Source: a bacterium (lineage in GTDB: Bacteria > Oederibacteriota > PGYV01). From it: a stretch of DNA of 58,136 nucleotides. The notes beneath the pieces are model-generated. The model was not told the DNA's origin and searched no databases. It was given only the letters and a program-made list of their open reading frames with translations. The stretch spans positions 1 through 58,136 of the forward strand of contig JAKQNO010000102.1 in the NCBI GenBank assembly GCA_029565735.1, given 5' to 3'. The translations under genes and the position numbers were made by a program. Of the stretch, positions 3,193-48,344 are shown piece by piece (the first letter of the stretch is position 1; each line of letters opens with the position of its first letter).

Positions 3193-3217
3193 CGCACCCT
3201 GAAGGGTGCGGCTACCA
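3193..3217 (+). repeat. REP-like palindrome, family A copy 1
   Basis: Stem CGCACCCT / AGGGTGCG around a GA loop, followed by GCTACCA. First of six family A copies in the window. Confidence 0.85.
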
Positions 3218-3237
3218 CTACAATTACACTTCAACTA

Positions 3238-3264
3238 CCGCGGGCTAAAGACCCGCGTCTACCA
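3238..3264 (+). repeat. REP-like palindrome, family B copy 1
   Basis: Stem CGCGGG / CCCGCG around loop CTAAAGA, followed by TCTACCA. Twenty bases after the family A copy; the A-B pair recurs at 3350-3421. Confidence 0.85.
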
Positions 3265-3296
3265 AGTCTAAACCAAACGCCTGGCCGCAGCCTTAC

Positions 3297-3323
3297 CGCT
3301 TATGCTTAATTGCTTATAGCTTA
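3297..3323 (+). repeat. CTTA-word repeat, family C copy 1
   Basis: Reads CCGCTTATGCTTAATTGC then TTATAGCTTA. Near-identical words occur at 41286-41324, 45410-45447 (reverse complement), 48211-48237 (reverse complement) and 48262-48344. Confidence 0.7.
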
Positions 3324-3349
3324 AATTTGCTGTCTTTTAAAGCAACTGC

Positions 3350-3421
3350 CGCACCCTAAAGGGTGCGCCTACCACTGCAATTCCACTTCAACTGCCGCGG
3401 GCTAAAGACCCGCGTCTACCA
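3350..3421 (+). repeat. REP-like palindromes, A copy 2 followed by B copy 2
   Basis: Family A at 3350-3374 (AA loop) and family B at 3395-3421, both with the CTACCA tail. Together with copies at 3193-3264 they fill most of the 295-bp gap between the acetyltransferase and radical SAM genes. Confidence 0.85.
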
Positions 3422-5956: not shown

Positions 5957-6035
5957 TATGCACTTCCTTGGCTGTTTTTATTTCCTGCATAAAAATATAT
6001 AGCATAACAGGGGGGAAATCAAGGGGAAAAAACCG

Positions 6036-6215
6036 AAGGTCGGAAGGTCAGAGGGACAGAGGGACAGAGGGACAGAAGGACAGAAGGACAGAAGGACAGA
6101 AGGACAGAAGGACGGAGGGACAGAAGGTCGGAAGGTCGGAGGGAGCGACGAGCATACGGAGAAAGTTTGAAGATTTTGCAGTTCTTCCGTCCCTCTGTCC
6201 CTCTGTGCATCCGTC
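6036..6215. repeat. GGACAGA tandem word block with inverted end (family D)
   Basis: The 349-bp gap between the divergent genes holds a degenerate tandem array of 8-10 bp units (GGGACAGA, AGGACAGA, GGTCGGAA). The array is followed at 6182-6220 by its reverse complement (CCGTCCCTCTGTCCCTCTGT), so the block could fold on itself. The same words recur at 16341-16376, 45350-45385 and 45536-45580. ORFs crossing it are low-complexity and not credible genes. Confidence 0.8.
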
Positions 6216-6231
6216 CCTCACGTTCTACTCA

Positions 6232-16270: not shown

Positions 16271-16340
16271 AAAGCCTCCTGTGTGTTTTACACATTTTAC
16301 CCGCTTCATCCGGCAAAATCAAGCAGGAGGAATAAAAGCT

Positions 16341-16376
16341 GAGGGACGGATGCACGGAGGGACAGATGGACGGAAG
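16341..16376. repeat. GGACGGA word block (family D)
   Basis: GAGGGACGGATGCACGGA and following words. Almost the same string opens the block at 45350, and its reverse complement ends the block at 45580. Confidence 0.7.
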
Positions 16377-16423
16377 TAACGACCGCTATCGAAGATTCGA
16401 AATTTGAAAATTAAATAAAACCT

Positions 16424-16605
16424 ACAGGGGTTGGATGTGTTTTTTCAGCGTGTGCCGCGCAGGCAAAATACATATACGGCAGGGGCGCTTTAATGCCGCG
16501 CCGGTTGGAGCGAGCCTGCGAAGCGGAAATCCCCGGGCTTGCGCGAGTCTACGAGCGCAAGTGTTAGGGGACAGCTCGCGCTGAAAAAACACACCCAACC
16601 CCTGT
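16424..16605. repeat. 182-bp inverted-repeat element with 27-bp arms (MITE-like or structured RNA)
   Basis: Left arm 16424-16450 and right arm 16579-16605 are reverse complements at 26 of 27 positions by eye. The 128-bp interior is GC-rich and itself contains paired segments (GCCGCGC near 16455 against GCCGCGCC near 16495), plus the 66-bp element G at 16505-16570. No ORF is convincing inside. It fills much of the 444-bp gap between two leftward genes; the remainder holds family D, E and A repeats. I find no clear target duplication at the ends. Confidence 0.75.
16505..16570 (+). repeat. 66-bp element G, copy 1
   Basis: Starts TTGGAGCGAGCCTGCGAAGC and ends TTAGGGG. Contains a 7-bp stem CTTGCGC / GCGCAAG with a 10-base loop. 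The second copy, of equal length, is at 41101-41166 and about 58 of 66 bases agree. Confidence 0.8.
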
Positions 16606-16613
16606 GATGTCAG

Positions 16614-16683
16614 ACGCTTGGATGCTTAGAAACTTAGTAAAATTCCAAATCAACTGCCGCGCCCTAAAGGGACGCGCCTACCA
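16614..16683 (+). repeat. family E words followed by REP-like family A copy 3
   Basis: GACGCTTGGATGCTTAGA (family E, also at 24312-24350) is followed at 16658-16683 by an A-type palindrome with one arm changed (GCGCCCT / AGGGACGC) and the usual CTACCA tail. Confidence 0.7.
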
Positions 16684-21347: not shown

Positions 21348-21436
21348 TGGTAGCCGCACCCTTTAGGGTGCGTGTTCTTTTAATTAAAATACCAATTACA
21401 AAATCAACTGCCGCACCCTGAAGGGTGCGCCTACCA
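21348..21436. repeat. REP-like palindromes, family A copies 4 and 5, inverted pair
   Basis: Copy 4 (21348-21372) is on the minus strand and copy 5 (21412-21436) on the plus strand. Their tails point outward and the pair could form one larger hairpin. Confidence 0.85.
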
Positions 21437-24311: not shown

Positions 24312-24382
24312 GATGCTTAGACGCTTGGATGCTTGGATGCTTGGAAGGTTAGATCTGGTAGACGCGGGTCTTCAGCCCGCGG
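24312..24382. repeat. family E words followed by REP-like family B copy 3
   Basis: GATGCTTGGATGCTTGGA tandem words (24312-24350) are followed at 24356-24382 by a minus-strand B palindrome (GAAG variant of the loop). Confidence 0.8.
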
Positions 24383-24448
24383 CAGTTGTTTTTTATTTTT
24401 TTCAGCGGAAATGTTTTCGCATTGGCGGTTATAACAGGTCATTTCGTC

Positions 24449-25333: not shown

Positions 25334-25469
25334 CCGCGGGCTAAAGACCCGCGTCTACCAGAACAAAATAAAATCCAAACCAACTACAACTACCGCGGGC
25401 TGAAGACCCGCGTCTACCATAACCATAACGCAAATCTAAAAAACGCGCCCTAAAGGGACGCGGCTACCA
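25334..25469 (+). repeat. REP-like palindromes: B copy 4, B copy 5, A copy 6
   Basis: B at 25334-25360 and 25393-25419, A at 25444-25469 (arm variant GCGCCCT / AGGGACGC), all in the same orientation with tails CTACCA. They occupy the middle of the 396-bp gap between the 24449 gene and serA; outside them and the serA terminator I see nothing. Confidence 0.85.
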
Positions 25470-41031: not shown

Positions 41032-41100
41032 ATTAACTTTATCCCATAAACTGATATCCAATATCCCATAGATAAAAGACAGGAAAGGCCGGAAGGTCAG

Positions 41101-41166
41101 TTGGAGCGAGCCTGCGAAGCGGAAATCCACGGGATTACGCAAGTTTACGAGCGTGAGTATTAGGGG
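41101..41166 (+). repeat. 66-bp element G, copy 2
   Basis: Same first 28 bases and same length as copy 1 (16505-16570). The stem is changed but kept (TTACGC / GCGTGA instead of TTGCGC / GCGCAA). Here it lacks the 27-bp outer arms and is flanked on both sides by GGCCGGAAG. Confidence 0.8.
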
Positions 41167-41204
41167 AAGGGCCGGAAGTAAAAACAACCATCAAATACAA
41201 AAAC

Positions 41205-41331
41205 GCGCGGGCTAAAGACCCGCGTCTGCCGGATCTAAACCAAATTTCCGGGCAGCCGGGCTGCCCGGCTTCGTTATTTATCTTTCCGCTTATGCTTAAC
41301 TGCCTATAGCTTAATCCGCTATTATTTATGA
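41205..41331. repeat. B copy 6, CCGGGCAGC hairpin and family C copy 2
   Basis: Remainder of the 301-bp gap between the convergent YfhO-like and trxB genes. A B-type palindrome with altered tail (TCTGCCG) at 41205-41231; a perfect 9-bp stem CCGGGCAGC / GCTGCCCGG with CGG loop at 41248-41268; and family C words at 41286-41324 ending in GCTATTATTTATG. Confidence 0.75.
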
Positions 41332-45349: not shown

Positions 45350-45580
45350 GACGAGGGACGGATGCACAGAGGGTCAGATGTTCGGAAGTAAAAACAAAAT
45401 CATAAGGACAAGCAGTTAAGCATTAGGCAGATAAGCAGAAGCGTAAGAAGAAAAACCGTAAAAATCTAATTCAACTACCGCGGGCTAAAGACCCGCGTCT
45501 ACCAGATCAAAAAATAAACCTACAAACTGCCGTTTTTTCTTCCATCCCTCCGTGCATCCGTCCCTCTGTCCCTCTGCCTT
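45350..45580. repeat. composite repeat block: D, reversed C, B copy 7, reversed D
   Basis: Fills the gap between the convergent fmt and ridA genes. GAGGGACGGATGCACAGAGG (from 45351) and the reverse-complement words at 45536-45580 (CCCTCCGTGCATCCGTCCCT) could pair. Between them are reversed family C words (45410-45447) and a B palindrome (45478-45504). Confidence 0.75.
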
Positions 45581-45960
45581 TATATCTCCGCGACCGCCTC
45601 TATTTCTATATTCGCGCCTTTTGGCAGGGCCGCCACCTGAACAGTGCTTCTTGCGGGAAGATTAACGCCGCACTTTTCTTCCATTACTTCGTTTACAAAT
45701 TTAAAATCATCAAGGTTCGTCATAAAGATATTCACCTTTACCAGCTTTTCAACGGAGCTTCCGGCAGCCTTTAAAACAGCTTCCATGTTATCAAAAATAA
45801 GCCTTGTTTCTTTGTGTATACCCTCTGTGGAAAGATGGCCGGTTTCAGGGACAATAGGCAGCTGGCCTGATAAAAAAATCAGGTTTCCGCATTTAATTGC
45901 CTGTGAATACGGCCCGACAGGTTTTGGCGCCTTATCCGTAAAAATAACCTCTTTTGCCAT
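45580..45960 (-). CDS. ridA: RidA-family enamine/imine deaminase
   Basis: 126 residues, the usual length. Hydrolyses reactive 2-aminoacrylate released by PLP enzymes. Signature features: PVGPYSQAIKCGNLIFLSGQ at the N-terminus and PARSTVQVAALPKGANIEIE with the catalytic Arg. GGGAGG precedes the ATG. Single gene between the repeat block and the BatD-like gene on the same strand. Confidence 0.93.
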   Translation of the reverse strand: MAKEVIFTDKAPKPVGPYSQAIKCGNLIFLSGQLPIVPETGHLSTEGIHKETRLIFDNMEAVLKAAGSSVEKLVKVNIFMTNLDDFKFVNEVMEEKCGVNLPARSTVQVAALPKGANIEIEAVAEI

Positions 45961-48123: not shown

Positions 48124-48210
48124 TTTTCCTCCGGATATTAAGTTTAATAAGATAAATTATCACGAAGGCCGGGATTTGTAAATTGATAAAAAAATACAAG
48201 GATGGCAGTT

Positions 48211-48344
48211 TAAGCTATAGGCAATTAAGCATAAGCGAAAGATAAAAACATTCTTCTAACTGTCGCTATAGCTTAACTGCTTAAAACGCTATATTTTATT
48301 GTTATCGCTTATGCTTAATTGCTTATCTGCCTATTGCTTATAAT
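48211..48344. repeat. family C words, one reversed and two direct copies
   Basis: 48211-48237 is the reverse complement of the words at 3297-3323. 48262-48290 and 48303-48344 run forward (ATCGCTTATGCTTAATTGC). The inverted halves could pair over about 25 bp with a loop of about 60. No gene seen. Confidence 0.75.

Follow-up and report, generated by a model that had tools for sequence, protein, structure and literature searches.

Element G, a short two-hairpin repeat that is in all likelihood mobile DNA, with clean insertions often found at the edges of REP hairpins

Y1 transposons insert without duplicating their target, and non-autonomous elements of the IS200/IS605 type, for example the PATEs, end in hairpins; mini-elements made of REPs, the REPINs, are also already known. 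The Y1 transposons recognize hairpins, and the RAYTs that were tested have CT, or both CT and CA, as cut sites (PMC8266576). REPs themselves serve, at a fixed position, as landing sites for IS1397, ISPa11 and ISPpu9/10 (PMC1525189), and the mitochondria of sponges and fungi contain double hairpin elements, short intergenic invaders whose stems differ by a few complementary substitutions (PMC2800124).

Here we describe element G, our name for a repeated stretch of 64-67 bp of which two copies lie in the window, the whole stretch of 58,136 nucleotides that was analyzed. It shares with GTAG-tagged REPs the character of short extragenic hairpin DNA in many copies, with G-N-A-G just 5' of the hairpin and complementary stem swaps between copies, in a genus that has a RAYT; the REP tag proper, GTAG or similar forms such as GYAG and GTRG, stands there as GTAG in a minority of copies. 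It differs from them in having two hairpins instead of one, mostly GGAG as the tetranucleotide, no RAYT gene flanked by it, and REP edges as its target; in fact, its length and its two hairpin domains place it outside a definition of REPs as single palindromic hairpins of about 20-40 bp, and the REPs of the genus, with their TTTA-type loop, are a separate family. Like the non-autonomous IS200/IS605-type elements, element G lacks terminal inverted repeats and target-site duplication, carries subterminal hairpins on one strand, and has strand polarity and a 5' target motif; unlike them, it has conserved bases on both sides of the target, and no autonomous partner with the same ends was found. 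The mitochondrial elements are likewise double-hairpin intergenic repeats, whereas REP-edge targeting is particular to element G, and the insertion sequences that target REPs are full elements with a transposase gene, whereas element G, 67 bp in the window, uses both REP edges. In the literature searched, a 67-bp two-hairpin element entering the edges of REP hairpins without a scar was not found described, and exact 11-mers of element G gave scattered matches in papers.

Two copies in the window and their family

Two copies of equal length, given as 66 bp, had been reported in the initial annotation; both are present at the positions reported, with a true right end one base further. The inserted element is thus 67 bp long (TTGGAG...GGGGA), its bounds being set by the target comparisons, and with the flanking G the repeat covers 68 bp (16504-16571 and 41100-41167) at 88% identity. 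The first 29 bases of the two copies are identical, and two matches with at most three mismatches were obtained in 0 of 100 shuffles of the window. Copy 1 does lie inside a 182-bp element, between arms at 16424-16455 and 16574-16605. The surroundings are not quite as unrelated as had been proposed, because both copies stand in other repeat families and at the same kind of target site. The features of the two loci are as follows.

16424-16605, + strand: host of copy 1, a shortened form of a repeat of about 215 bp with imperfect terminal inverted repeats, from sequence comparison with the 215-bp units
16505-16571, + strand: copy 1 of element G, of subtype I and within the 182-bp host (covariance-model match 16505-16570, 93 bits)
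16510-16524, + strand: hairpin P1 of copy 1 (GCGAGC-CT-GCGAAGC), preceded by GGAG (helices 1 and 2 of the alignment)
16530-16534, + strand: 5' arm of outer stem P2, copy 1 (TCCCC; alignment-free counts)
16538-16561, + strand: inner stem P3, copy 1, with tandem G-A/A-G (fitted alignment and alignment-free counts)
16567-16571, + strand: 3' arm of P2, copy 1 (GGGGA), the right end of the element (alignment-free counts)
41085-41100, + strand: left half of the target tract of copy 2 (...GGTCAG); the joined flanks align with the uninterrupted tract of genome G001, locus L099
41101-41167, + strand: element G copy 2, subtype I, inserted in a tract of the 8-bp type and absent at the syntenic place in G001
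41106-41120, + strand: hairpin P1 of copy 2 (helices from the family alignment)
41126-41130, + strand: 5' arm of P2, copy 2 (TCCAC, one broken pair; alignment-free counts)
41134-41157, + strand: inner stem P3, copy 2, with an A-T exchange and a T-G wobble (sequence and alignment-free counts)
41163-41167, + strand: 3' arm of P2 and right end, copy 2 (alignment-free counts)
41168-41180, + strand: right half of the target tract of copy 2 (AGGGCCGGAAG...; same comparison with the G001 tract)

One strand of element G folds into two hairpins, the smaller, P1, on the 5' side and the larger, P2/P3, on the 3' side. P1 has the form GC-GA-GC-loop-GC-GA-(N)-GC and is placed after a GNAG tetranucleotide, which is found in 85 of 92 full-length copies (GGAG in 60, GAAG in 16, GTAG in 8 and GCAG in 1). 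P2 is the outer stem, TCCCN/N'GGGA, whose 3' arm finishes exactly where the element ends on the right; the inner stem, P3, has a short loop and conserved tandem G-A/A-G mismatches (68 and 66 of 75 copies). Taken singly, the window copies fold no better than their own shuffles as RNA (copy 1, z -1.16, 25 of 200 shuffles folding as well; copy 2, z +1.58, 192 of 200), and the same is true of their DNA folds. Moreover, two pairs are broken in copy 2: in the outer stem A29 faces a G, and at the base of the inner stem A34 does so too. The two copies are therefore a lead, and it is the family that proves the structure.

That family is large. The core of element G was found by BLAST at 44 places in the genome of the window (G000), and a covariance model, for which 51 distinct copies and a structure set by hand were used, detected 46, 44 and 22 copies in three genomes of the genus and no copy in a further 42 genomes of the phylum. 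The same three carriers were returned by a covariance-model search of 41 genomes and by a DNA search of 59 genomes, their own and those of relatives; the head pattern of element G had no match in a genome-contig collection from which near relatives are possibly excluded. Among the genomes examined, element G is confined to the genus. A phage origin was also considered, and viral contigs gave no exact match to the head pattern. The collection of further copies from the genome and its relatives, suggested in the initial annotation, yielded 111 distinct copies that were read, 92 of full length (37 in G000, 38 in G001 and 17 in G002) and 19 partial, in two subtypes, I and II, that differ by one base before the outer stem.

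Insertion sites and target preference

How element G came to its places was examined in four comparisons. At orthologous loci of G001 (L167) and G002 (L084), a 64-bp copy stands between GCCCGCGG and CAGTTGATT in the former, and the REP is unbroken in the latter; L084 reads as an intact REP followed by CAGTTGATTTTTTTGGTGC, L167 as the same REP, the copy and the same sequence, with no base gained or lost and with flanks that match on both sides. In locus L107, two REPs about 600 bp apart share the same 19 downstream bases, one with element G in between and one without. The syntenic place in G001 lacks window copy 2; it has an unbroken tract (...GGGTCAGAGGGTCC...) that matches the window flanks once these are joined. 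Insertion is therefore clean, with neither duplication nor deletion of the target. For copy 1, a counterpart of the 182-bp host without element G lies at the syntenic place in G002 (L102); its junction is not clean, and the pair may reflect imprecise loss rather than an empty site. All this makes it almost certain that element G is a mobile DNA element.

Two known kinds of element were set aside. A MITE of the terminal-inverted-repeat type needs inverted ends and a target duplication, and element G has neither (TTGGAG...GGGGA is not inverted); the left end, GTTGGAG, resembles the GTTRRRY box of integron attC sites, but the right end carries no inverted partner.

Element G inserts as TT...GGGA at RG^NR. 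By a strict stem test, 45 of the 92 full-length copies stand at the edge of a REP hairpin, 34 at the 3' edge (hairpin-GCGG^CAG) and 11 at the 5' edge (TGG^TAG-hairpin), against a background, by the same test, of 94 among the 5059 RG^HR sites of the window (1.9%). All 45 are on the GTAG strand and 0 of 92 on the other strand; by genome they amount to 7/37 in G000, 27/38 in G001 and 11/17 in G002. A looser REP pattern gave 41 + 14 of 92, and the loosest gave 61 but took in some copies of the 215-bp element, and the strict count was therefore used. The consensus does not come from REPs alone: the 21 copies outside both REPs and the 215-bp repeat show the same bases, with G at -1 in 19, a purine at -2 in 18 and a purine at +2 in 19.

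The REPs themselves (TGGTAGNCGC) number 139, 203 and 248 in the three genomes, compared with 22, 22 and 25 for a reversed control, and 15 other genomes show no clear excess. In the window, REP hairpins (TGGTAGNCGC-stem-TTTA-stem-GCGGCAGTTG) lie at 3208-3264, 3365-3421, 16674-16683, 21348-21436, 24356-24388, 25334-25419, 41205-41230 and 45474-45505. Their stems occur in several variants with complementary bases swapped, the TTTA-type loop and GTAG being constant. AT-rich hairpins of the ATATCGCATC...GATGCGATAT type sit in the TTTA loop of some REPs (L056, L026, L110), a second kind of nested insertion.

The main host in G000, with 13 of 37 copies, is the 215-bp repeat, which has imperfect inverted ends (CAGGGGTTGGGTGTGTTTTTTCAG) and conserved flanking tracts and occurs in many copies (for example L008, L025-L030 and L064-L069). 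In L008, on contig C61 of G000, a single unit holds two copies of element G about 150 bp apart (starts 50808 and 50957), and the 182-bp form of the window consists of the left arm, one element G and the right end. Judging from these sequences, the 182-bp form probably arose by recombination between two copies in one unit, with loss of the intervening DNA.

Other dispersed repeats were observed. Tandem tracts with an 8-bp period (GGGACAGA type) occur on both strands, often near the 215-bp repeat (window positions 6016-6230, 16322-16385, 45350-45397 and 45530-45581). A repeat built on GCTTATGCTTAATTGCTTATAGCTTAA, at 3292-3324, 41282-41314, 48202-48240 and 48301-48333, is a target of element G in L020, L029, L051 and L164. 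Copies with nearly the same flanks at different places or in different genomes were seen in L052/L088 (common left flank TGACATTATCTTGTTGTATTGG) and in L154/L155 (common right flank TATTCCATAGA), which suggests that element G lies there in larger blocks that are duplicated or shared.

Candidate enzymes

Element G contains no gene. Its hairpins, its strand polarity, its short target motif and its clean insertion, with no duplication of the target, together suggest the single-strand chemistry of HUH/Y1 enzymes, and movement of this kind is, in our estimate, fairly probable. As a gene-less, non-autonomous piece of mobile DNA, one strand of which folds as P1 and P2/P3, element G would be recognized through its hairpins by a Y1/HUH transposase and moved as single-stranded DNA. 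It enters between RG and NR, with target bases neither added nor removed and with a preference for the edges of REP hairpins on the GTAG strand. A RAYT that binds REPs would use them as landing sites and accept element G as a second substrate.

Two Y1 genes per genome were found by a Pfam scan in all three genomes. One encodes a short RAYT of 152-154 aa, located at L107:1441-1899 and L108:1399-1863, 64% identical between G000 and G001 and flanked by the same TGGTAG-type REPs that element G uses; in G002 only a remnant is left (37% identity, one stop), yet this genome has 22 copies of element G, which could have spread there earlier. The RAYT is favored by the REP edges, by GNAG before P1 and by the common distribution in two genomes. 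It is disfavored by the published cut sites (CT/CA), by its loss in G002 and by the absence of element G around its gene: the repeats flanking it are REPs, and the only RAYT or IS110 loci with element G, 2 of 30, are the same place (L107/L188), where element G itself is inside a REP. The target RG^NR is not CT or CA, and at REP 3' edges it falls two bases before the end of a CA. By the strict test, moreover, roughly half of all copies lie away from REP edges, and in G000 only 7/37 lie at edges. That the RAYT of this genus in particular moves element G is for these reasons a tentative assignment. Taking everything together, we lean slightly towards a non-autonomous element that a Y1/HUH transposase moves in single-stranded form, with the RAYT of the genus as the best single candidate. 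The more specific idea, that a domesticated RAYT has as second substrate a two-hairpin mini-element inserted at the foot of REP hairpins, we consider doubtful.

The same clean-inserting mini-element might instead be served by another enzyme, an extinct or unseen IS200/IS605-like transposase, or an IS110-type or other recombinase, with REP edges acting as good hairpin targets; this is possible, although we would not call it probable. Half of the copies are outside REPs, and REPs are targeted by several IS families, among which ISPa11, of the IS110 type, is described as lacking the usual direct repeats (PMC1525189). G000 and G001 contain an IS110-type gene, and a second Y1 transposase of about 330 aa, flanked by unrelated hairpins, is present in all three genomes. 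Against this, G002 has no IS110 match despite its 22 copies, and no element G was met at the IS110 or 330-aa Y1 loci examined. Recombination of the serine or IS110 type should leave a dinucleotide core at the junctions, and those of element G have no common core. Apart from the element G inside the L107 REP, no ends of element G were found at the Y1 loci examined, and no autonomous relative combining TnpA with such ends was met there. Beside the 330-aa Y1 gene, GCCCTGTCTGGGGTCTGACCCCAGACAGGGC palindromes were observed in L104 and L105 and other hairpins in L103 and L106.

Compensatory changes and what the insertions mean

The exchange from TTGCGC/GCGCAA in copy 1 to TTACGC/GCGTGA in copy 2, noted at the outset, is real and consists of G-C to A-T together with T-A to a T-G wobble. 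Exactly the first of these, A-T versus G-C at the same pair, separates the orthologous copies L081 of G001 and L072 of G002, whose right flanks are 90.8% identical. RNAalifold on a MAFFT alignment recovered only 6 pairs and no double changes, because of the one-base difference between the subtypes ahead of the outer stem; consequently, the structure was set by hand, the copies were realigned with the model, and alignment-free counts served as a check. These block counts used the 75 of 92 copies without length change, 17 being dropped for length.

In the 59-row alignment fitted to the structure model (59 distinct rows), cells with changes on both sides of a pair numbered 49, versus 17.0 in shuffles, and 0 of 500 shuffles were as high; the number of pairs with such changes was less striking (7 versus 5.2, 53 of 500 as high). 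The alignment-free counts agree. The fifth P2 pair is C-G in 45 copies, G-C in 23, T-A in 14 and A-T in 1, so that 83 of 92 are Watson-Crick and 9 are mismatched, none as G-T. Two upper P3 pairs show changes on both sides in both subtypes: one is G-C or A-T in 28 and 2 copies of subtype-I length and in 28 and 11 of subtype-II length, the other T-A or C-G in 30 and 1 and in 23 and 15, respectively. In the lower part of P3, by contrast, Watson-Crick pairing is mostly a feature of subtype I; subtype II has G-A, A-A and A-G mismatches there. The claim that the stem is kept while the sequence drifts is therefore supported, and the further copies do show an excess of compensatory changes.

The structure implied by the initial annotation stands, but its implied reading as a structured RNA, to be tested by covariation of the R-scape type, is not the main story. 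What the flanks and the empty sites reveal is mobile DNA that prefers certain targets. We regard it as very unlikely that element G is in the first place an RNA structure with a regulatory or ribozyme-like role, its stems being kept by selection on a transcript. Its compensatory changes exceed those of shuffles in both subtypes, and the conserved tandem G-A/A-G and linker are RNA-like. On the other hand, the copies lie in unrelated intergenic places and within other repeats, copy 2 is decayed, and there is no Rfam match at element G. As for known RNAs and ribozymes, an Rfam scan of the window at the gathering score returned only a tRNA, and a loose threshold on 4 loci gave nothing at element G. 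Among P2 and upper P3 pairs of the 75 copies, 633 of 675 cells are Watson-Crick, 14 G-T, 8 A-C and 20 other; selection on the RNA strand should favor G-T, and 14 against 8 indicates no clear strand preference and lends no support to an RNA strand. Furthermore, template switching in DNA hairpins during replication can change both arms at once, and so make compensatory pairs without selection (PMC8794818), and REP families contain subfamilies with alternative complementary stems (PMC3733652). Given the possibility of template switching and the lack of strand bias, covariation shows that the hairpin matters or repairs itself, not that RNA is made, and an RNA function for element G is not needed. 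Finally, element G might not itself move but be spread passively as repeat clusters (REPs, 8-bp tracts and 215-bp units) recombine or undergo gene conversion. This would suit the chimeric host L010, in which a 215-bp arm on the left is joined to an 8-bp tract on the right, and the 182-bp form, which fits recombination between two copies, but it is extremely improbable in view of identical left and right ends in at least four unrelated target families and of filled and empty sites that differ by exactly one element.

For those who search for RNAs, the family is a caution: a set of hairpins may show good compensatory changes and yet be mobile DNA. It is not settled how REPs spread; cutting by RAYTs has been observed in vitro, but small hairpin elements rarely offer exact filled and empty sites. 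Element G has exact, scar-free sites at both REP edges and orthologous empty sites in sister species, and so offers a concrete substrate, target and product for tests of RAYTs. If it is a second substrate of the RAYT, REPs would be standing landing pads, and the insertions of element G would be a fossil record of where a RAYT opens REPs in vivo; this site, RG^NR, would be unlike the RAYT cut sites described in PMC8266576.
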